Below, in pieces: positions 54,543 through 63,996 of a stretch of DNA of 64,000 nucleotides. Positions within the stretch are counted from its first letter, which is position 1. Every line of letters begins with the position of its first letter. Made by a program: the position numbers and the translations under genes. Origin of the DNA: Nitrospira sp. (GTDB lineage: Bacteria > Nitrospirota > Nitrospiria > Nitrospirales > Nitrospiraceae); assembly GCA_029881435.1 (NCBI GenBank), contig JAOUMR010000001.1, positions 1-64,000 of the forward strand, in the 5' to 3' direction. The notes beneath the pieces were generated by a model. That model was not told the origin of the DNA. It worked only from the letters and a program-made list of their open reading frames with translations, and ran no database searches.

Positions 54543-55916
54543 CTAGAACAGATATCGCAGGCTGAAGGTCCCTAAATGCACGAAGGCATGATAGGTCCCG
54601 TCGACCGTCGGGTTGAGATTGCCGACCACCGTGCGGGACTCATAAAACCATTCCTGATAGGCAAGGTCGAGCCCAATGCCTTTGGGCCACAAAGCCGACT
54701 CTCCACTGCAAGGGATCAGCCCAAGAAATCGTCCTGCCCCCTTACAGAGAAATCCCACGCCAAGGGACAGGGTATGAGCGGGTAAAGAAATGATGCCAGG
54801 ATTAAAGGTCCGATCGGGAACGGGATCTTCCGTGTACGTGTAGCCGGACCGAGCGGCAATCTCCCAGTACGGCATCCAGCGTGGGTTGAGCCACTTATAC
54901 TCGGTCCCCACTGCAATCACCGTAACATTCTTCCACTGTTGAGGCTGGGGAATCGCCGCCCCGTTCGAAAGACGGACATCCAGATGTTTATTCAAACTCC
55001 AGCCTACATACTCGACATCAAGCTCCACCTTCCACTCCCTCTCGCTGGTACGCACCGGCCAGATAGCGACGGCTCCCGTAAACTTTTGCGGCAGCACAAG
55101 ATCGGTGGAGGCATCGGCCACCTTTGCCCCGTTGACGAGCAACACCCCCTTCAACGGCAATACTGCTTGACTGCGATAGACCAACCCGATCGAGACAATC
55201 GGTTTACCGGCTTCATTTCTCAAGGGAGCATAAAGCATGCTGGCCGTCACGCCCGCTCCAGTCCCTGTACCATTCAGTTCAATGGGCGCCCCCGCTGGGA
55301 TTCCAAGGGTGCCAGCACTCACCTGTTTCTGCTCCACATGCCCTTCGCCAAGAAAGCTGGCGAAGGTATAAATATCGGCGCTCACACCTACAGAAAGCTG
55401 ATCGTTAATTTTATAGGCAATCGTTGGCTGGATGGCGAGTAACGGAAGTGCCGCCGACGTCACCGCCGTCCTGAAAGGACCATCGAGTGGATAGCGTGTA
55501 TTGAGACCGAACGGTGATGCGAGCCCGATCCCGGCGGTCACCGAAGACAGGAGCGGCAATCCAACGGTTGCAAGATTGGCACTAAGATAGAAATTACTGG
55601 GAGGGGGCCAGTTTACGCTGCCATTGAAATCGCCACGACTATCTACTCCCGTCGGGCTCTTGTACTTAACCGATCCCCCCAGCAAATTGGTCCCCAGCAC
55701 ACTTTGGATACCTTCTACTTGAGTCAACCCAGCCGGGTTGTACTGGATGGCCGACGGATCATCGGCTTGTGCGGCGAATGCATTGCCCTGTCCGACTGCT
55801 CGTGCTCCCTGAGGTTGAAAGCGAAGGGCCTGAGCACCCGCAGCCGTCTGCCATAAGAGAAGACCTAAAAGGGTAAGTACTGCAGCTATCCAACCCATGC
55901 ACGATGTTGGCCTCAT
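54543..55916 (-). CDS. FadL/OmpP1-family outer-membrane hydrophobe transporter
   Basis: 457 aa. A signal peptide is followed by the FadL family start: QGARAVGQGNAFAAQADDPS and AIQYNPAGLTQ. It continues with barrel strands and ends in Phe (FSLRYLF), as expected for BAM-inserted proteins. Such channels import fatty acids or aromatic hydrocarbons. It is convergent with uvrC, with only 10 nt between the stops. Confidence 0.88.
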   Translation of the reverse strand: MRPTSCMGWIAAVLTLLGLLLWQTAAGAQALRFQPQGARAVGQGNAFAAQADDPSAIQYNPAGLTQVEGIQSVLGTNLLGGSVKYKSPTGVDSRGDFNGSVNWPPPSNFYLSANLATVGLPLLSSVTAGIGLASPFGLNTRYPLDGPFRTAVTSAALPLLAIQPTIAYKINDQLSVGVSADIYTFASFLGEGHVEQKQVSAGTLGIPAGAPIELNGTGTGAGVTASMLYAPLRNEAGKPIVSIGLVYRSQAVLPLKGVLLVNGAKVADASTDLVLPQKFTGAVAIWPVRTSEREWKVELDVEYVGWSLNKHLDVRLSNGAAIPQPQQWKNVTVIAVGTEYKWLNPRWMPYWEIAARSGYTYTEDPVPDRTFNPGIISLPAHTLSLGVGFLCKGAGRFLGLIPCSGESALWPKGIGLDLAYQEWFYESRTVVGNLNPTVDGTYHAFVHLGTFSLRYLF

Positions 55917-56157: not shown

Positions 56158-56976
56158 ATGGCACATGCACTAGCCACGCAAACCTTTCCACGCAACACTT
56201 TCGATGCCCTTTCTAAATCCGAATGCCAGAGCTTCATCGAAATTCTCCATTATGTGATGCAGGCGGAGACTCCCGATCATATACGAGATGTACTCGTTCG
56301 ATTCCAGAACCATTTCTCATTCACGAAAGCCTTAGGGGGTCTTGTCCGCCTCGGACCGGGGCAGACATTTGCCGGATTCGGGAATGTCATCAATGCCAAT
56401 TATCCGGATGAATGGTTATATATGTACTGGAAAAACGGGTTTGCTGACATCGATCCGGTATTCACATCAGCCCTGAAATCCCCAGGCACTCAGCATTGGC
56501 AAGAGATTTATCAAAACATGTCCTCAGAGAAGGAACGAGAGTTTATCGCTGCCGCGGGCCAATTCGGTCTCTGCGATGGGATCACCACAGGTTCTGTTGA
56601 TGAGGCATGCGGAGTTGCCACATTTTGTTCCTTCGCGAGCGAAGAAATAATCGATGCAAAACGACTGGTTCCACTCGTTGAATACCTAGGGTACTACATT
56701 CACATGGCCCTTCTGCGGACCGCATCAAGGACCGCCCCGCAAACAGATCGATGCGTCAAGGAGCTGTCCTCTCGAGAAGTCACGATCCTCAATTGGATGA
56801 AGAACGGAAAAACCAATTGGGAGATTGGGAAGATCCTCGGGGTCAGTGAACGAACCGTACGATTCCACATCGAGAGCATCTTTGCCAAGCTAGAGGTGAC
56901 TTCCCGTTCTCAGGCCGTTGCAACCGCCATCGAACACGGTCTCCCGGCACTCCACGGCTTGCCATCCGCCATGTAG
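56158..56976 (+). CDS. luxR: LuxR-type AHL-responsive transcription regulator
   Basis: 272 aa. Residues about 20-180 form the autoinducer-binding domain, with the AHL-contact residues Trp86, Tyr90 and Asp99-Pro100 (NYPDEWLYMYWKNGFADIDP) in the exact spacing of TraR/LuxR, and GLCDGITTGSVD further on. The C-terminal LuxR helix-turn-helix is LSSREVTILNWMKNGKTNWE to TVRFHIESIFAKL. ATG 56158 has AGGAGG 6 nt upstream, so the frame extension to 56113 is not used. It is convergent with luxI. The likely targets are the palindromes at 57931, 58370 and 58441. Confidence 0.92.
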   Translation: MAHALATQTFPRNTFDALSKSECQSFIEILHYVMQAETPDHIRDVLVRFQNHFSFTKALGGLVRLGPGQTFAGFGNVINANYPDEWLYMYWKNGFADIDPVFTSALKSPGTQHWQEIYQNMSSEKEREFIAAAGQFGLCDGITTGSVDEACGVATFCSFASEEIIDAKRLVPLVEYLGYYIHMALLRTASRTAPQTDRCVKELSSREVTILNWMKNGKTNWEIGKILGVSERTVRFHIESIFAKLEVTSRSQAVATAIEHGLPALHGLPSAM

Positions 56977-57042: not shown

Positions 57043-57798
57043 CTACGCGGCACGTACAAGGTGTCGATCTTCTGCCAATTCAGCATACTCCACCATATCG
57101 TTCTCTTGGCTCTCGCGTGGAGGTTGTAGTTGCTCTTGGCCGAGGACGGGAGTCGTTGTTGTCAGCCAATCCAGCATAGCAGGACGATGCATCAGGGCTT
57201 GGTGGCGAAACTCTTCCAGATCGAGTAACCCTACGATAGAGAGTACTTCAGCCGGTGGTAACGCAACAGGCGCCCCTATGGCATGGCATGGCCATCCCAT
57301 ACGCTGAACAACCCGCAGCAGTCTGTGTTCCACCACCATATAGGTGTAGCGGACTTCATGAAGAAGACACCATAGATACATCCCTTTGAAGATCGTCTTC
57401 ATCAGCTTTGCGGAAAGGCCACGATCAACGATCGCCGGGTCAACGGCCAGCCGCGTAATCTCCGCCGTATCGGTTTCCTTCCGGACGCGATGACTCCCGA
57501 CGAGGCAAGCACTGAACTCACTCTCCAGCATGAAAGGGACCGGCGCATGGGTCATGCGGACCAATCCCAGCAACTTCGTGTCGTCGGCGAATACGCCAAT
57601 CGAGGAACTCCACGCATCATACAGATCGGCTTCGAGGCGATCTGCCCGTTCAGGGACCCACTTCAGCCGTTCAGCAAATACTCGATGCCGCAATTGATAA
57701 GCCTGAGTCAGGTCCTCCTTTGTTTCGAGCGTCTTGACGAGAAACTCTCCTTCGTAGAACTCAACTCCTCTCCCCTCTCTGACTGCTGTTACTTGCAT
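57043..57798 (-). CDS. luxI: LuxI-type acyl-homoserine-lactone synthase
   Basis: 251 aa. All invariant LuxI residues are visible with correct spacing: Arg37 and Phe41 (LRHRVFAERL), Trp47, Asp58 and Asp61 (ADLYDAW), Arg81 (LGLVRM), Glu113 and Arg116 (AEITRLAV). It makes AHL signals from SAM and acyl-ACP; the acyl chain is not predictable. The protein is about 40-50 residues longer than classical LuxI, with a Gln/Glu-rich C-terminal tail. AAGGAGG lies 5 nt upstream of the ATG. A lux-box-like palindrome is centred about 142 nt upstream of the start codon. Confidence 0.93.
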   Translation of the reverse strand: MQVTAVREGRGVEFYEGEFLVKTLETKEDLTQAYQLRHRVFAERLKWVPERADRLEADLYDAWSSSIGVFADDTKLLGLVRMTHAPVPFMLESEFSACLVGSHRVRKETDTAEITRLAVDPAIVDRGLSAKLMKTIFKGMYLWCLLHEVRYTYMVVEHRLLRVVQRMGWPCHAIGAPVALPPAEVLSIVGLLDLEEFRHQALMHRPAMLDWLTTTTPVLGQEQLQPPRESQENDMVEYAELAEDRHLVRAA

Positions 57799-57930: not shown

Positions 57931-57950
57931 ACCTGGCGTATCAGCCAGGT
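57931..57950. promoter_or_regulatory. lux-box-like operator upstream of luxI
   Basis: ACCTGGCGTATCAGCCAGGT, with the ACCTG-N10-CAGGT architecture of classical LuxR operators, 133 nt upstream of the luxI start codon. It differs from the two other copies at one central position, giving 7-bp rather than 8-bp arms. It suggests autoinduction of luxI. Confidence 0.8.
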
Positions 57951-58369
57951 GCTTCCCTAGGCTGACGATTGCCTAGCTATTACCATCTACAATAATTGGT
58001 ATTTTCCCCTGGGGCCAAGAACGGTTCGGCCCTAGAAGGCTGCTTATATGGGCCCCCCTTTGGCTGCACGGTCACGAGTCATGGCATTGAGGTCTGACTG
58101 CACGCATAGATGCCTCCAGGTTTGGCCCCGTATGGAAATCCGCACTGCGGGTCCTCATCAGAAACCTCGGCCTGCTAATGGCCAGCCCCCAAAAAAAACA
58201 ACCTGTTAAGGGGAGCAAGCGGGAAAGGAGGATGGACCATCAACTTCCGCCGAGCTGTTTTGGATGGAGAGGGACGTACTATTCGCTTGGTCTAAACGGT
58301 GAAGCCGGAATGGTACCGTGTTGACTTATTATCCGTAGAATGGACGTTCTCTCTACAGAGTATGGTGTT

Positions 58370-58389
58370 ACCTGGCGTATCCGCCAGGT
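58370..58389. promoter_or_regulatory. lux-box-like operator 1 upstream of the kinase operon
   Basis: ACCTGGCGTATCCGCCAGGT, a near-perfect 8+4+8 palindrome with the ACCTG-N10-CAGGT form. It is identical to the copy at 58441, and the shared block extends to GATTTC after the palindrome. TAAAAG at 58411 lies where a -10 box would be for a class-II lux promoter. Confidence 0.8.
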
Positions 58390-58440
58390 GATTTCTTGAT
58401 CGTTCTGACGTAAAAGCGTTGGCGTACGCTGTGCAGTGCT

Positions 58441-58460
58441 ACCTGGCGTATCCGCCAGGT
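58441..58460. promoter_or_regulatory. lux-box-like operator 2 upstream of the kinase operon
   Basis: Second identical copy of ACCTGGCGTATCCGCCAGGT, 71 nt after the first and 98 nt before the kinase start codon. A TATTAA (58475) or CATACA (58481) could serve as -10, but neither is strong. Two sites about seven helical turns apart would allow cooperative LuxR binding on one DNA face. Confidence 0.8.
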
Positions 58461-58558
58461 GATTTCCATGGGGGTATTAACATACAAGTGTTTTATAGAA
58501 TCCATTGCCCCGTAATTGCTTGGCTTCAGAGTAAAGAAACAGGAAAGGAGAAAAGAAC

Positions 58559-59362
58559 GTGATGGACGGTAGAACGCGGTTCCAATTGTTGGAAGGAGGA
58601 CTTGGCGCAACCCCGGCATTATTATTCCGCCAGCCGATGCAGCCACCGCGAGAATCCTTCAGCGCACATCATGTGGGGCCTTGTGCAGGCGAGCTCACGA
58701 TGGCCTACAACGCGACTGAACGACGGCTTCACACACTGCTAGAAGATCGCACCCGTATCGGCCGAGATCTTCATGACAGTGTGTTGCAATCTCTGTATGC
58801 CATCGGGCTCACCATTGAAACATCACGGCGGTCTCATGAACTTCAAACGTTCGAATCTACAAAATCTGACGAGATCACGATCCAGCAAATCAATCAACTG
58901 ATCCAGGAAGTCCGCGAGATGATTCTCGAATTGGAGTCCGGCACCGTCCAGGAATTCGATCTATCTTCTGAGCTGAATAGGTTGCGCACGACTCATGAGC
59001 ACACAGGCCATCTGCGCGTTAAGTTGGATCTTCAGCGCACCGCTCTTGAAATGCTCACAAAAGAGGAGGAACGGGAGATTCTGAATATCGTACGAGAGGC
59101 CCTTAGCAATTGTGCCCGCCATGCCCATGCATCCCGAGCTACAGTCTCGCTTCGCATGAGAGACACGAGAATTCGCGTCCGCATACAGGACGATGGCATT
59201 GGATTATCCATGGCCGTGGGACAGCCCCGCGGATACGGGCTTACCAACATGGAAGCTCGGGCAAAAAAGCTCGGAGGGACGTTACGGGTTCAGTCCAAAA
59301 CCGGGGGAGGCACGCAAGTAACGGCTGAGTTTTCATTGGAACCCCTCTTGGCCCCCGTATGA
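58559..59362 (+). CDS. cytoplasmic NarL-type histidine kinase without a sensor domain
   Basis: 267 aa. After about 45 residues of unclear role comes a HisKA_3 dimerisation domain with the phospho-acceptor His72 in IGRDLHDSVLQSLYAIGLTI, then a HATPase domain: IVREALSNCARHAHA (N box), IQDDGIGLS (G1), YGLTNMEARAKKLGG and GGGTQVTAEF. There is no membrane segment or PAS domain, so input must come from a partner or from its own synthesis level. AAGGAG lies 8 nt before GTG 58559; ATG 58562 is an alternative. The two lux boxes upstream suggest control by AHL level. The regulator gene overlaps its stop by 4 nt. Confidence 0.87.
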   Translation: MMDGRTRFQLLEGGLGATPALLFRQPMQPPRESFSAHHVGPCAGELTMAYNATERRLHTLLEDRTRIGRDLHDSVLQSLYAIGLTIETSRRSHELQTFESTKSDEITIQQINQLIQEVREMILELESGTVQEFDLSSELNRLRTTHEHTGHLRVKLDLQRTALEMLTKEEEREILNIVREALSNCARHAHASRATVSLRMRDTRIRVRIQDDGIGLSMAVGQPRGYGLTNMEARAKKLGGTLRVQSKTGGGTQVTAEFSLEPLLAPV

Positions 59363-60039
59363 AACAGCCACAAACCAGTATCGTTCTCATTGATGACCAC
59401 GAGATGGTGCGTAGAGGACTGCGTGCGCTGCTTCACCTTGAACCGGATATGACGATTGTGGGCGAAGCTGGAACTGTCGCGGATGGTGCCGCGCTCGTTG
59501 AACGCCTCACCCCACACATGGTGCTGCTGGACGTAAAACTTCCTGATGCCACCGTCACCGAGGCTTGCCGACGGCTTCTGGCTGTCGCGCCAAAGCTTCG
59601 TATTCTTGTCCTCACCAGCTATGCCGAAGACGCGACAGTGATGGCCGCCGTCCAGAACGGAGCCCATGGCTATGTCCTCAAGGATGTGCGAATGGATGAC
59701 CTCATACGTGCCATCCGCACTGTGGCCACCGGTCATGGCCACCTCGATCCGCGAGTGACCCAACGAGCGCTTCATTGGATTCGCACCAGTTCGCACCTGG
59801 GCGTGAACCCCCAGGGTGTCACTCGATTGTCACCTCAAGAGCGTCTCATTCTCCCCCTGTTGGCAGAAGGGAAGACAAATAAAGAGATCGCCGTGCATCT
59901 CCGTTTGAGCGACAAGACGATAAAGAACTACCTGGCGAATATCTTCGATAAGCTGCATGTGAAACGCCGGACAGAGGCCGTTGCTTGGTTCATGAAAGAA
60001 AGCCATGTGCCTTCCCCTGCAAGGAGTCCAAAGCTGTAA
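59359..60039 (+). CDS. NarL/FixJ-type response regulator
   Basis: 226 aa. Receiver domain with acidic pocket Asp12-Asp13 and phospho-acceptor Asp58 (MVLLDVKLPD), then LTSYAEDATV (Thr/Ser switch) and GYVLKDV (Lys). The C-terminal LuxR-type helix-turn-helix runs from LSPQERLILPLLAEGKTNKE to NYLANIFDKLHVKRR. It overlaps the kinase gene by 4 nt, so the two form a translationally coupled pair and this is its partner. Targets unknown. Confidence 0.92.
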   Translation: MKQPQTSIVLIDDHEMVRRGLRALLHLEPDMTIVGEAGTVADGAALVERLTPHMVLLDVKLPDATVTEACRRLLAVAPKLRILVLTSYAEDATVMAAVQNGAHGYVLKDVRMDDLIRAIRTVATGHGHLDPRVTQRALHWIRTSSHLGVNPQGVTRLSPQERLILPLLAEGKTNKEIAVHLRLSDKTIKNYLANIFDKLHVKRRTEAVAWFMKESHVPSPARSPKL

Positions 60040-60230: not shown

Positions 60231-63200
60231 ATGAATTCTCCGTCGACTATCGACGGCGCCCTATCCGCTGAGCTGACCCATTTGCGGCAGCAGGTGCGTG
60301 AGCTACAGGAGGCCTTGGCTCACTCCAAACGGGACCGTCGACTCGCACAAGCTTCTGCGCTTGAGGCAGCCCAAGTGGGAACTTGGACGTGGGAAGCCGA
60401 TACGAATCGTGTCAGCTGGTCGGTGGAAACAGAACAGATCTTTGGCCTTCTTCCAGGATCATTCGATGGGACATATGAGGGGTTCTTTGGCCTCGTCCAT
60501 GCCGACGATCGTCAACGGCTCAGTACTGCCATCGCGACGGCCATCGACGAGCGGACTTTCTACCTTATTGAACACCGTATTATCACTCCACACGGGGATA
60601 CCCGATGGGTGGCATGCCGCGGCCGCGCCCTTTGTAGAGAAAATGGATCGCTTTCGGGCATGGTTGGCACCGTGGAAGATATCACTACGCGTAAGCAATC
60701 AGAGCTGGCTCAGCAAGCCATGCACGACACGCTCGAAGCCCAAGTACGCGAGCGAACCACAGGACTCGAACGGGCCGTCATTGAGCTCACACAAGAAGTT
60801 GCGCGGAGGCAGCAGGCGGAGTCAGCGCTCAAGGCAAGTGAACAGCGGTATCACTCCCTCTATGAACACAATCCCTTCATGTATTTCACCCTCGCCTCCG
60901 ACGGAATCGTGTTGTCGGTGAATCGTTTTGGAGCGGAGCAACTCGGGTACCAAGAAGAGGACCTTATCGGTCAATCGATTGTGCAGGTGTTCCATTTGAG
61001 TGATCACCACACCGTGTTGGAACGGCTTACGGCCTGCGTAGCCAGCCCGTACACGCTGTTGGAATGGGAAACTCAAAAGATCCGAAAAGATGGAACCCGG
61101 TTATGGGTGAAGGAGCGAGCGAGAGCTGTTCACGACCACACGGGGATGATCCTCGTGCTAGTGGTCTGCGAAGATATCACGGAACGAAAGCGGACTGAAA
61201 AACAGCTTCAGGAAACCTCTCGGCTACTCCGTACCCTCGTGAATGAGTCGGCGCTCCCACTTGTCAGCCTCGACCGAGAAGGGCGAGTCCTCAGTTGGAA
61301 TCAAGCGGCAACATGCCGCTTCGGCTGGTCTGAAGAGGAAGTGCTCGGACGTGAACTCCCCTATGCTCAAGCGGGCAAAGAGGCCATGGCCGATGCCTTG
61401 TGGGGAAGAGGAATACGTGGGGAATTGATTGGTCCTATAGAATTGCGCCGTCAACGCAAGGACGGTCAAGTGCTCGACCTTCTCCTCTGGCCCGTCTTTG
61501 TCTACGACGAGTTCGAACAAGTTTCGCTTGCCGTCGGCTGCATCATACGGGATGTGACTGAGAGTCGCCTCATCGAGTCACACGTTCGAGAAAATGAGGC
61601 TCGATGGAGAGCGCTGTATGAGCATGCAGGAGTCGGGATCGCTGAGCTCGCGCTCGATGGTCGATTTCTTCGAGTGAATCCCCACTTATGCAAGATCCTA
61701 GGGTACTCATCGGAAGCGATGCTCGAACGGAATTTTCAAGACTTGACCCACCCAGACGACATCCAGACGAATCTTGCCTATCTCGCTGAACTGCTGGCCG
61801 GGAAGCGTCACTCGTTCTCGATGGAAAAGCGCTATCGTCGGATCGACCACACCTGGGTGTGGGTCGACTTGACCGTATCTCTTGTGCATACTGTCTCCAG
61901 CGATCATGCCTATTTGATTGCGGTCATTCAGAACATCGACGATCGGAAGCGCTCCCATTCGCTTCTGCAAGCGGCCATGGACTCCGTCGCAGATGGCCTG
62001 CTCATCGTCGATCGACAAGGGAAGGTCACACGTGCCAATCAACGTTTCTTGGCACTCTGGAACATCCCTGATGAATTGGCCAACTGTCAAGACGACGACG
62101 CCTTGGTGCTCTCTGTTATGGACCAGCTGCAAGATCAGCATGCTTTCTTGGACAAGGTCCGTCAACTGTACGCACACCCCGAAGAGGAAAGTCTTGACGT
62201 GTTGCACTTCAAGGACGGCCGTGTCTTCAAGCGTCACTCACGGCCACAGATTCTCGATAGAGAAATCGTGGGCCGTGTTTGGACGTTCCGAGACGTCACG
62301 AAACACAAACGAGCCGAAGAAGCATTACGCGAGAGCGAACTCATGCTCCAGCGCTTCGTCGCTGAAGCCCCGGTCGGTCTGTGCATCCTCGATAAGAACT
62401 GGCGCGCGATCTGTACCAACAGAGCGTTGTGTGAATTGACGGGGTATGAGGAAGACGAGATTATTGGAAGCACCTACGCACTCTATACGCACCCGGAAGA
62501 TCTTTCCGCCAACATCGTCCTGACAGATGAGTTCTTTCGAGGACTCCGATCGAGCTATACCTATGAAAAGCGCTACATCAGGAAATCTGGAGAAATCATT
62601 TGGGTGGCAGTCAAGGCGACGCGCATCGAGCTATCCGGCCACGAAGGACCGCTTCTCCTGGCAGCTGTTCAGGACATCACCGAGCGCAAGCTGGCGATGG
62701 AAGAACGTGAACAACTAAGTCGCGATCTTCACGATAATCTGCTGCAAGCGCTGTATGCGGTCGGCATGCAACTTGAGGCTGGAAAACTTGCCATGAAGCA
62801 TTCCGCCCGCCGCTCTAAAACCCATATGAGTCGAGCAGTCACCCAACTCAATAATCTCATGGTGGACGTTCGCCGATTTATTGCCTTGCTAACAAGGCGT
62901 CCGCCCACGGAGCTTGATTTTGGACAGGCCCTCAATCAGCTCATTACTTCGATGACGGGAACCGATCAGACTGCGCCGGAACTCGACATCAAGAGTCCCG
63001 TCCTTTCCTTTATTACGCCTCAGCTGGCAGAACAACTTCTCAATATCACGCGAGAAGCCTTGAGCAATAGCATGCGCCACGCTCACGCCTCCCACCGATG
63101 GGTGCAGCTGAGCTTGATCGACAACTCCATCCGTTTAGTCATCGGCGACAATGGTGTCGGCTTTGTCCAAACCCGTAGGCGGCGCACCGGTCATGGGCTC

Positions 63201-63320
63201 AGCAACATGGCCGCTCGAGCCCAACGCATGTTCGGTACCTTTACCCTACAAAGCACTCCGAGACGAGGAACAATGATTACGGTTGACGTGCCATTGAAGA
63301 AGGGAGCCGTGTATGAATAA
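60231..63320 (+). CDS. multi-PAS NarL-type histidine kinase, soluble
   Basis: 1029 aa, with no membrane segment seen. A coiled coil at about 10-35 is followed by about six PAS/PAC units: WTWEADTNRVSWSVETEQIF (about 45), YHSLYEHNPFMYFTLASDGI (about 205), LPLVSLDREGRVLSWNQAAT (about 345), WRALYEHAGVGIAELALDGR (about 460), AAMDSVADGLLIVDRQGKVT (about 580) and EAPVGLCILDKNWRAICTNR (about 710). The HisKA_3 domain has His834 in LSRDLHDNLLQALYAVGMQL, then the HATPase motifs ITREALSNSMRHAHASH and GDNGVGFVQTRRR. The PAS repeats suggest heme, flavin or small-molecule sensing, but no ligand residue is identifiable. It overlaps its regulator gene by 8 nt. Confidence 0.9.
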   Translation: MNSPSTIDGALSAELTHLRQQVRELQEALAHSKRDRRLAQASALEAAQVGTWTWEADTNRVSWSVETEQIFGLLPGSFDGTYEGFFGLVHADDRQRLSTAIATAIDERTFYLIEHRIITPHGDTRWVACRGRALCRENGSLSGMVGTVEDITTRKQSELAQQAMHDTLEAQVRERTTGLERAVIELTQEVARRQQAESALKASEQRYHSLYEHNPFMYFTLASDGIVLSVNRFGAEQLGYQEEDLIGQSIVQVFHLSDHHTVLERLTACVASPYTLLEWETQKIRKDGTRLWVKERARAVHDHTGMILVLVVCEDITERKRTEKQLQETSRLLRTLVNESALPLVSLDREGRVLSWNQAATCRFGWSEEEVLGRELPYAQAGKEAMADALWGRGIRGELIGPIELRRQRKDGQVLDLLLWPVFVYDEFEQVSLAVGCIIRDVTESRLIESHVRENEARWRALYEHAGVGIAELALDGRFLRVNPHLCKILGYSSEAMLERNFQDLTHPDDIQTNLAYLAELLAGKRHSFSMEKRYRRIDHTWVWVDLTVSLVHTVSSDHAYLIAVIQNIDDRKRSHSLLQAAMDSVADGLLIVDRQGKVTRANQRFLALWNIPDELANCQDDDALVLSVMDQLQDQHAFLDKVRQLYAHPEEESLDVLHFKDGRVFKRHSRPQILDREIVGRVWTFRDVTKHKRAEEALRESELMLQRFVAEAPVGLCILDKNWRAICTNRALCELTGYEEDEIIGSTYALYTHPEDLSANIVLTDEFFRGLRSSYTYEKRYIRKSGEIIWVAVKATRIELSGHEGPLLLAAVQDITERKLAMEEREQLSRDLHDNLLQALYAVGMQLEAGKLAMKHSARRSKTHMSRAVTQLNNLMVDVRRFIALLTRRPPTELDFGQALNQLITSMTGTDQTAPELDIKSPVLSFITPQLAEQLLNITREALSNSMRHAHASHRWVQLSLIDNSIRLVIGDNGVGFVQTRRRRTGHGLSNMAARAQRMFGTFTLQSTPRRGTMITVDVPLKKGAVYE

Positions 63321-63996
63321 GGCTCCATCGATCCGGTTGGTCATCGTGGACGATCACGAAGTGGTGCGCATTGGGCTTCGGGCAGTCCTCAATCTGACAC
63401 CGGGAATGAACGTGGTGGGTCAAGGCATGAGGATGGGGGATGCCAAAACACTTTGCTCCCGGTTCAAACCCGATCTTATTCTCCTCGACATTCGATTGCC
63501 TGATGGCAGCGGCGTGGATGCAGCTCGTGAAATTCTTCTGAAATGTCCACAGACCCGCGTGCTCTTCCTGACAAGCTTTGCCGACGATCATACAGTGCTC
63601 GAAGCGATTCTCGCCGGAGCTCATGGGTACATCCTGAAAGACATCGGCTCTCAGGCTCTCATCCGCGCTATTCGTTCAGTGGCCGCCGGCCAGGTATTCA
63701 TCGACTCTCGTTTAACAGGCCAAACATTGGGATGGCTGAAGAACGTGTATCGCGAACCTGGGCATTCGAAACGCCCACTCCTCTCTCCACAAGAGCAACG
63801 TCTTTTGCCGCTGGTCGCTCAAGGTCTCACAAACAAAGAGATCGCTCAAGACTTGCGCCTCAGCGAAAAGACCATCAAGAACTACCTTGCCAATATCTAC
63901 ACGAAGCTGAATGTCGGGCGTCGATCTCAGATTGCGGCGTTCTATGCGGGAAGCTTCAAAGGATCAGGCAGGCACTTATCTGTGGAGTCGGACTAG
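63313..63996 (+). CDS. NarL/FixJ-type response regulator, paralogue of the 59.4-kb regulator
   Basis: 227 aa with receiver residues Asp13-Asp14 and Asp59 (LILLDIRLPD), LTSFADDHTV, GYILKDI, and a LuxR-type helix-turn-helix from LSPQEQRLLPLVAQGLTNKE to NYLANIYTKLNVGRR. Its recognition helix (LSEKTIKNYLANIY) is almost the same as that of the regulator at 59359 (LSDKTIKNYLANIF), so the two may share targets. It ends 4 nt before the window's last bases and appears complete. Confidence 0.92.
   Translation: MNKAPSIRLVIVDDHEVVRIGLRAVLNLTPGMNVVGQGMRMGDAKTLCSRFKPDLILLDIRLPDGSGVDAAREILLKCPQTRVLFLTSFADDHTVLEAILAGAHGYILKDIGSQALIRAIRSVAAGQVFIDSRLTGQTLGWLKNVYREPGHSKRPLLSPQEQRLLPLVAQGLTNKEIAQDLRLSEKTIKNYLANIYTKLNVGRRSQIAAFYAGSFKGSGRHLSVESD

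Follow-up and report, generated by a model that had tools for sequence, protein, structure and literature searches.

We analysed a 64,000-nucleotide stretch of a Nitrospira sp. genome (contig JAOUMR010000001.1, positions 1 to 64,000; hereafter the window), in which a LuxI/LuxR-type quorum-sensing system faces a histidine kinase operon across three lux-box-like palindromes. The locus comprises fadL (-), luxR (+), luxI (-), box 1, boxes 2 and 3, the kinase (+), the response regulator gene RR1 (+), a multi-PAS kinase (+) and a second regulator gene, RR2 (+) (Table 1). A first-pass annotation had described the palindrome as lying once 5' of luxI and twice, identically, 5' of a divergent kinase/regulator operon, with LuxR next door. 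The coordinates were confirmed in the window, and the neighbouring gene indeed encodes Autoind_bind and GerE domains.

Table 1. Features of the quorum-sensing locus in the window (AHL, acyl-homoserine lactone)
Feature	Position	Strand	Remarks
FadL/Toluene_X outer-membrane channel	54543-55916	-	Pfam 3.2e-32; adjoins luxR
LuxR-type AHL receptor/activator	56158-56976	+	Pfam Autoind_bind 3.6e-17, GerE 5.9e-21
LuxI-type AHL synthase, allele class I	57043-57798	-	Pfam Autoind_synth 1.7e-21; class from tree
Candidate lux box 1, luxI side	57931-57950		ACCTGGCGTATCAGCCAGGT; 132 bp to luxI start
IS110-family (IS1111-like) element end, remnant	58033-58188		Between boxes 1 and 2
Candidate lux box 2, kinase side, farther copy	58370-58389		ACCTGGCGTATCCGCCAGGT
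-10-like TAAAAG	58411-58416	+	+22 to +27 past box 2, place of the conserved TA of orthologues
Candidate lux box 3, kinase side, proximal copy	58441-58460		ACCTGGCGTATCCGCCAGGT; 98 bp to kinase GTG start
-10-like TACAAG	58483-58488	+	+23 to +28 past box 3
Soluble histidine kinase, HisKA_3 + HATPase, sensor domain absent	58559-59362	+	Pfam; GTG start
RR1, NarL/LuxR-type response regulator	59359-60039	+	Overlaps kinase stop, same operon
Multi-PAS histidine kinase, HisKA_3 type	60231-63320	+	Pfam; downstream in most loci
RR2, second NarL-type response regulator	63313-63996	+	Pfam; overlaps PAS kinase

Probable lux boxes of the luxI locus

Boxes 2 and 3 are identical and differ from box 1 by one base. 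The real arms of the palindrome are 7 bp long (ACCTGGC-N6-GCCAGGT). Exact matches to the shorter form ACCTG-N10-CAGGT are confined in the window to the three boxes and number four in the whole 3.72-Mb genome, the additional one being intragenic. With 7-bp arms, the three window boxes are the only exact copies in the genome, and no site with one mismatch was detected across its 3.72 Mb. The genome-wide scatter that would have refuted the first-pass annotation was not seen. Sites with up to three mismatches stood at control level (221 versus 235 for the reversed pattern), so a wider regulon cannot be claimed.

We then scanned 147 genomes of relatives (one per species, many of them fragmented) and obtained 79 matches to the 7-bp-arm form in 61 genomes (versus four for the reversed control). 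The exact box was present in 61 of the 66 genomes with a clear luxI, while the 80 genomes lacking luxI had no copy. Three of the remaining five luxI genomes have a 1-mismatch box, one lacks upstream sequence, and G070 (L123) has neither box nor kinase-regulator pair, with luxI directly adjoining the PAS kinase. Of the 79 exact boxes, 74 lie at luxI, judged from their position or from reading the locus.

The five off-locus boxes comprise two in G080 and one each in G079, G051 and G052. In G080, one perfect box lies directly 5' of mtnB-mtnC (L117:5001-5020), methionine salvage genes that would recycle 5'-methylthioadenosine (MTA), the by-product of AHL synthesis; the third box of this genome lies near the gene of a VTT-domain protein (L118:5001-5020). 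The G079 box is found 47 bp 5' of a PilZ-domain gene (L116:5001-5020), that of G051 between secA and a hypothetical 390-aa gene without Pfam match (L114:5001-5020), and that of G052 within a gene. Viral contigs gave 110 scattered matches.

Each window site is a 20-bp dyad with a CT-N12-AG core, and luxI has such a site at its 5' side. Among 85 boxes, a set chosen at no more than one mismatch, 11 of the 14 arm positions do not vary. According to passages of a metagenomic study of Nitrospira LuxI/LuxR (PMC8553950), a lux box of the sequence ACCTGGCGGTTCCGCCAGGT was tested in reporter assays (196.6-fold and 14-fold) and electrophoretic mobility shift assays (EMSA). Of the 61 candidate promoters tested there, a strong response was confined to the two on either side of this box, and activation in both directions depended on LuxR and N-octanoyl-homoserine lactone (C8-HSL). 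The box as a divergent shared operator in Nitrospira is already published, and the window boxes differ from ACCTGGCGGTTCCGCCAGGT at inner bases only. Near-identity to the tested box, co-occurrence with luxI and the conserved promoter geometry described below support the reading of the window palindromes as putative LuxR operators and sustain the earlier assignment to the classical operator form.

The system of that study, NspI/NspR1 from an activated-sludge Nitrospira, resembles the one in the window in its same-genus LuxI/LuxR type and in a near-identical 20-bp box common to luxI and a divergent gene. In contrast, the kinase, the genus-wide conservation, the extra kinase-side boxes and the exchange of alleles are not described in its passages (PMC8553950). 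AHLs have been reported for N. japonica (PMC5767232) and, in the same passages, for NspI (PMC8553950). The window LuxI, whose relatives are nearly all found in records named Nitrospira, qualifies as a putative AHL synthase by its domain and conserved catalytic residues (R37, F41, W47, D58, D61, R81, E113 and R116 are invariant across 9 aligned classes). The LuxR hallmark residues W86, Y90, D99, P100 and W114 are each shared by 97% or more of the 66 relatives compared.

Promoter geometry and history of the intergenic region

We read 68 luxI loci, in 61 of which the kinase is the divergent neighbour within 1.5 kb. A box lies between luxI and kinase in all 61 adjacent pairs (and in 62 of 62 named genomes, a set that partly overlaps the 61). 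Irrespective of whether the intergenic region spans 200 or 1000 bp, the distance from the kinase-side box to the probable kinase start is mostly 88-106 bp, and window box 3 keeps this genus-wide spacing. In most genomes luxI and the kinase have a single box in common, as is the rule where the intergenic region is short. Two or three boxes were found in 16 loci, mostly with long intergenic regions; here one box lies about 94-132 bp from luxI and another near the kinase. In L061 and L063, the kinase-side box alone is kept.

Past the kinase-side box, a TA at +22/+23 is conserved in most of the 61 loci. The -10 element is expected at this place if the lux box has its centre near -42.5, so that the kinase side has the predicted geometry of a class-II LuxR promoter. 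Since boxes 2 and 3 are each followed by a -10-like element, the window may contain two tandem kinase promoters. Past the box on the luxI side, GACGT and GGAACCATCC are conserved and no canonical -10 was found.

In the window, the luxI-kinase intergenic region is 764 bp long. Its segment between boxes 1 and 2 was considered as an RNA; this was rejected, as the segment is a degraded IS110-family element end. The remnant is about 68-71% identical to the ends of intact elements in relatives, which encode a Transposase_20/DEDD_Tnp_IS110 transposase. Non-coding ends of IS110/IS1111-type elements can encode bridge RNA. The similarity between boxes 2 and 3 extends over 31 bp at 97% identity and marks them as a local duplication. 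A remnant of the kinase N-terminus is present in five other multi-box loci (L047, L048, L049, L051 and L082), which indicates that extra boxes arose more than once. Duplication of a kinase fragment was rejected as the origin of the window's extra box, given that the remnant is seen in those five loci and not in the window.

Exchange of luxR-luxI and loss of luxI

Besides classes I and II, the LuxI tree holds two more clades with support plus two long rows that form a pair (IIIa-c). Class III does not form a single clade, and the trees come from quick searches. The LuxI class label requires 2 changes on the LuxI tree, versus 18 on that of UvrC, encoded in one flank, and 23 on that of RR1, encoded on the other side (minimum possible 3 for four classes). 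Approximately unbiased (AU) tests rejected LuxI trees that group close kin (p 1.3e-5 or less) as well as RR1 trees that group class I or class II (p 4.8e-6 and 3.5e-96). Compared with G061, the window proteins are 95% (UvrC) and 96% (RR1) identical, versus 52% for LuxI. In pairwise DNA comparisons (12 pairs), similarity typically breaks off close to the 5' end of fadL, to return between start-proximal luxI and the kinase. Between classes, median LuxR identity is 38-58% for the ligand domains versus 65-81% for the helix-turn-helix (HTH) domains, and the recognition helix ERTxRFH is invariant in 66 proteins. That is, luxR-luxI exists as several deep allele classes that were repeatedly swapped between conserved flanks, while recognition helix, box and kinase operon stayed constant. 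AHLs are predicted to differ by LuxI/LuxR class. Two assemblies, G047 and G069, each contain two luxI loci of different classes, which could represent two systems or mixed bins.

Five genomes (G020, G025, G029, G032 and G043) lack luxI and retain the kinase operon next to uvrC. Here, a conserved operon (L108:157-4702, also L107 and L109-L111) with a nitroreductase-like gene, a FabF-like ketosynthase, a P450 (in four of the five) and a short LuxR lies 5' of the kinase operon. This LuxR is 180-187 aa long; the HTH is kept and the AHL domain is absent. It may work signal-free or with another signal. A 1-mismatch box precedes the kinase in four of the five genomes (the G020 site has two mismatches), and fadL is missing at the locus in four of five. 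N. moscoviensis (NZ_CP011801.1, L305; class IIIb) has the nitroreductase-like and ketosynthase genes plus an intact luxR-luxI, and its locus looks like an intermediate.

A sensorless kinase as probable quorum-sensing output

The kinase was said to have no sensor domain of its own, and this holds for the window protein and for the orthologues examined. Its Pfam content is restricted to HisKA_3 and HATPase; an input domain is typical, though not obligatory, for HisKA_3 pairs, and no further Pfam domain was found in the kinase. With its receiver-GerE regulator it forms a HisKA_3/NarL-type pair. In orthologues, usually only 70-130 codons separate the preceding stop from the H-box, and a PAS or GAF domain would not fit. 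With so few upstream codons, control of the kinase through its level is the simplest reading. A short N-terminal motif, RxFQLLDGG with variants, was found by a loose pattern in 53 of 64 orthologues (58562-58650 in the window) and is a possible docking peptide. No case of a kinase under LuxR control through a lux box was found among the titles and abstracts listed in literature searches.

We consider it likely that the boxes are LuxR operators driving luxI and the kinase operon, with AHL setting the amount of kinase as a relay. LuxI would make AHL, and AHL-bound LuxR would bind the box beside each promoter and so activate luxI, in a positive feedback, as well as the divergent operon of kinase and response regulator. 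AHL would thereby set the kinase amount and, through it, the phosphorylation state of the partner regulator or regulators, which would then act on the remaining genome. For the relay step we infer control by amount as the most likely mode, given the missing sensor domain. As there is essentially no other perfect LuxR site, the chief target that quorum sensing controls directly is probably the kinase operon.

Several points weigh against this circuit. Where our loci have a kinase, passages of the Nitrospira study name the divergent gene a GGDEF/EAL hypothetical protein, and the published distances of 81 and 125 bp are near those of our loci and identical to none (PMC8553950). An attempt to match them to the kinase gave several loci at 79-88 and 103-130 bp, none exact; we suspect that the published neighbour may be this kinase. 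According to the same passages, box binding required RNA polymerase (PMC8553950). In addition, luxI occurs without an adjoining kinase in G080, G130 and G070, and the regulators could also receive input from the second sensor kinase, encoded downstream.

Regulators of the NarL type have the GerE fold in common with LuxR and frequently autoregulate, and the boxes lie 5' of their operon; the palindromes could thus be autoregulatory sites of these regulators instead of LuxR operators. We regard this as quite unlikely, since the boxes follow luxI: G080 and G130 have a perfect box despite lacking the adjoining kinase, whereas three luxI-less or broken loci with a kinase operon, at contig ends in G002, G073 and a G049 fragment, have no box, and no adjoining LuxR-HTH gene was seen there. 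Moreover, the EMSA and reporter work names LuxR in the passages of its report (PMC8553950). The single box serving both genes in most genomes would also fit regulation of luxI alone, with kinase-side boxes as a by-product of the common intergenic region. This is unlikely, as in longer regions a box usually stays about 90-110 bp from the kinase start with the -10 element at a fixed interval, L061 and L063 retain only the kinase-side box, and in four of five luxI-less genomes the kinase is still preceded by a 1-mismatch box. The published reporter, according to the same passages, was active both ways (PMC8553950).

A role of the perfect inverted repeat at the RNA level, in a terminator or attenuator hairpin instead of an operator, is very improbable. 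Box 2 does score as terminator-like, but such structures number 4 versus 3.8 in shuffles, the box lies upstream of a promoter-like element, the arms are invariant as described with no compensating changes among the 85 boxes, and no Rfam family matched in the window. A further alternative accepts activation of the kinase by the box and places the output elsewhere: either the regulator in its unphosphorylated form or the PAS kinase encoded downstream would carry it, and the short kinase would serve as a phosphatase or a brake. HisKA_3 kinases are capable of phosphatase activity, and a multi-PAS kinase with a second regulator follows the operon in most loci; against this, the H-, N- and G-box motifs of the short kinase are intact by inspection. 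We regard this alternative as possible but doubtful.

Returning to LuxR-driven expression of the kinase, the signal half (luxR-luxI) is exchangeable between species on a constant set of DNA-binding helix, box and kinase operon. Tentatively, and with a good deal of reserve, we propose a one-output circuit, in which the whole response would pass through the sensorless kinase and an exchangeable signal cassette would sit on the constant LuxR-HTH/box/kinase core. Where luxI is absent, the ketosynthase-P450 operon would replace the cassette and may supply a different, non-AHL input or leave the short LuxR constitutively active.

The LuxI-LuxR system of Vibrio fischeri has the same 20-bp box form (ACCTG-N10-CAGGT), the same divergent arrangement and positive feedback on luxI. 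However, its output is the structural luciferase operon, whereas that of Nitrospira would be a two-component system. Alternative synthase and receptor alleles in close strains are also known from Pectobacterium quorum-sensing classes I and II (ExpI/ExpR), where alleles differ in their AHLs and the differences concentrate in the synthase C-terminus (PMC6934387). Pectobacterium has two classes at about 70-75% identity, Nitrospira four or more clades with identities as low as about 45%; unlike in the Pectobacterium account, changes of LuxI class across conserved flanks were counted on trees here. In agr/com-type pherotypes of Firmicutes, a polymorphic signal and its receptor are exchanged as a block beside a constant output module. 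There, signals are peptides read by a sensor kinase, whereas in Nitrospira LuxR would read AHL with the sensorless kinase downstream. Repeated luxR-luxI exchange against a constant output would be the AHL counterpart of peptide pherotypes, and it predicts that close Nitrospira species cannot hear each other. Nitrospira includes major nitrite oxidisers and comammox organisms that are hard to grow and largely without genetics. With the data pointing to a single conserved direct target, the kinase/regulator operon, the question of quorum-sensing targets becomes testable and narrows to the regulon of the RR1-type regulator.

Of the neighbouring genes, fadL is conserved beside luxR in luxI loci. 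Since rhizobia import long-chain AHL through FadL (PMC9938287), the Nitrospira FadL may, by analogy, import AHL.
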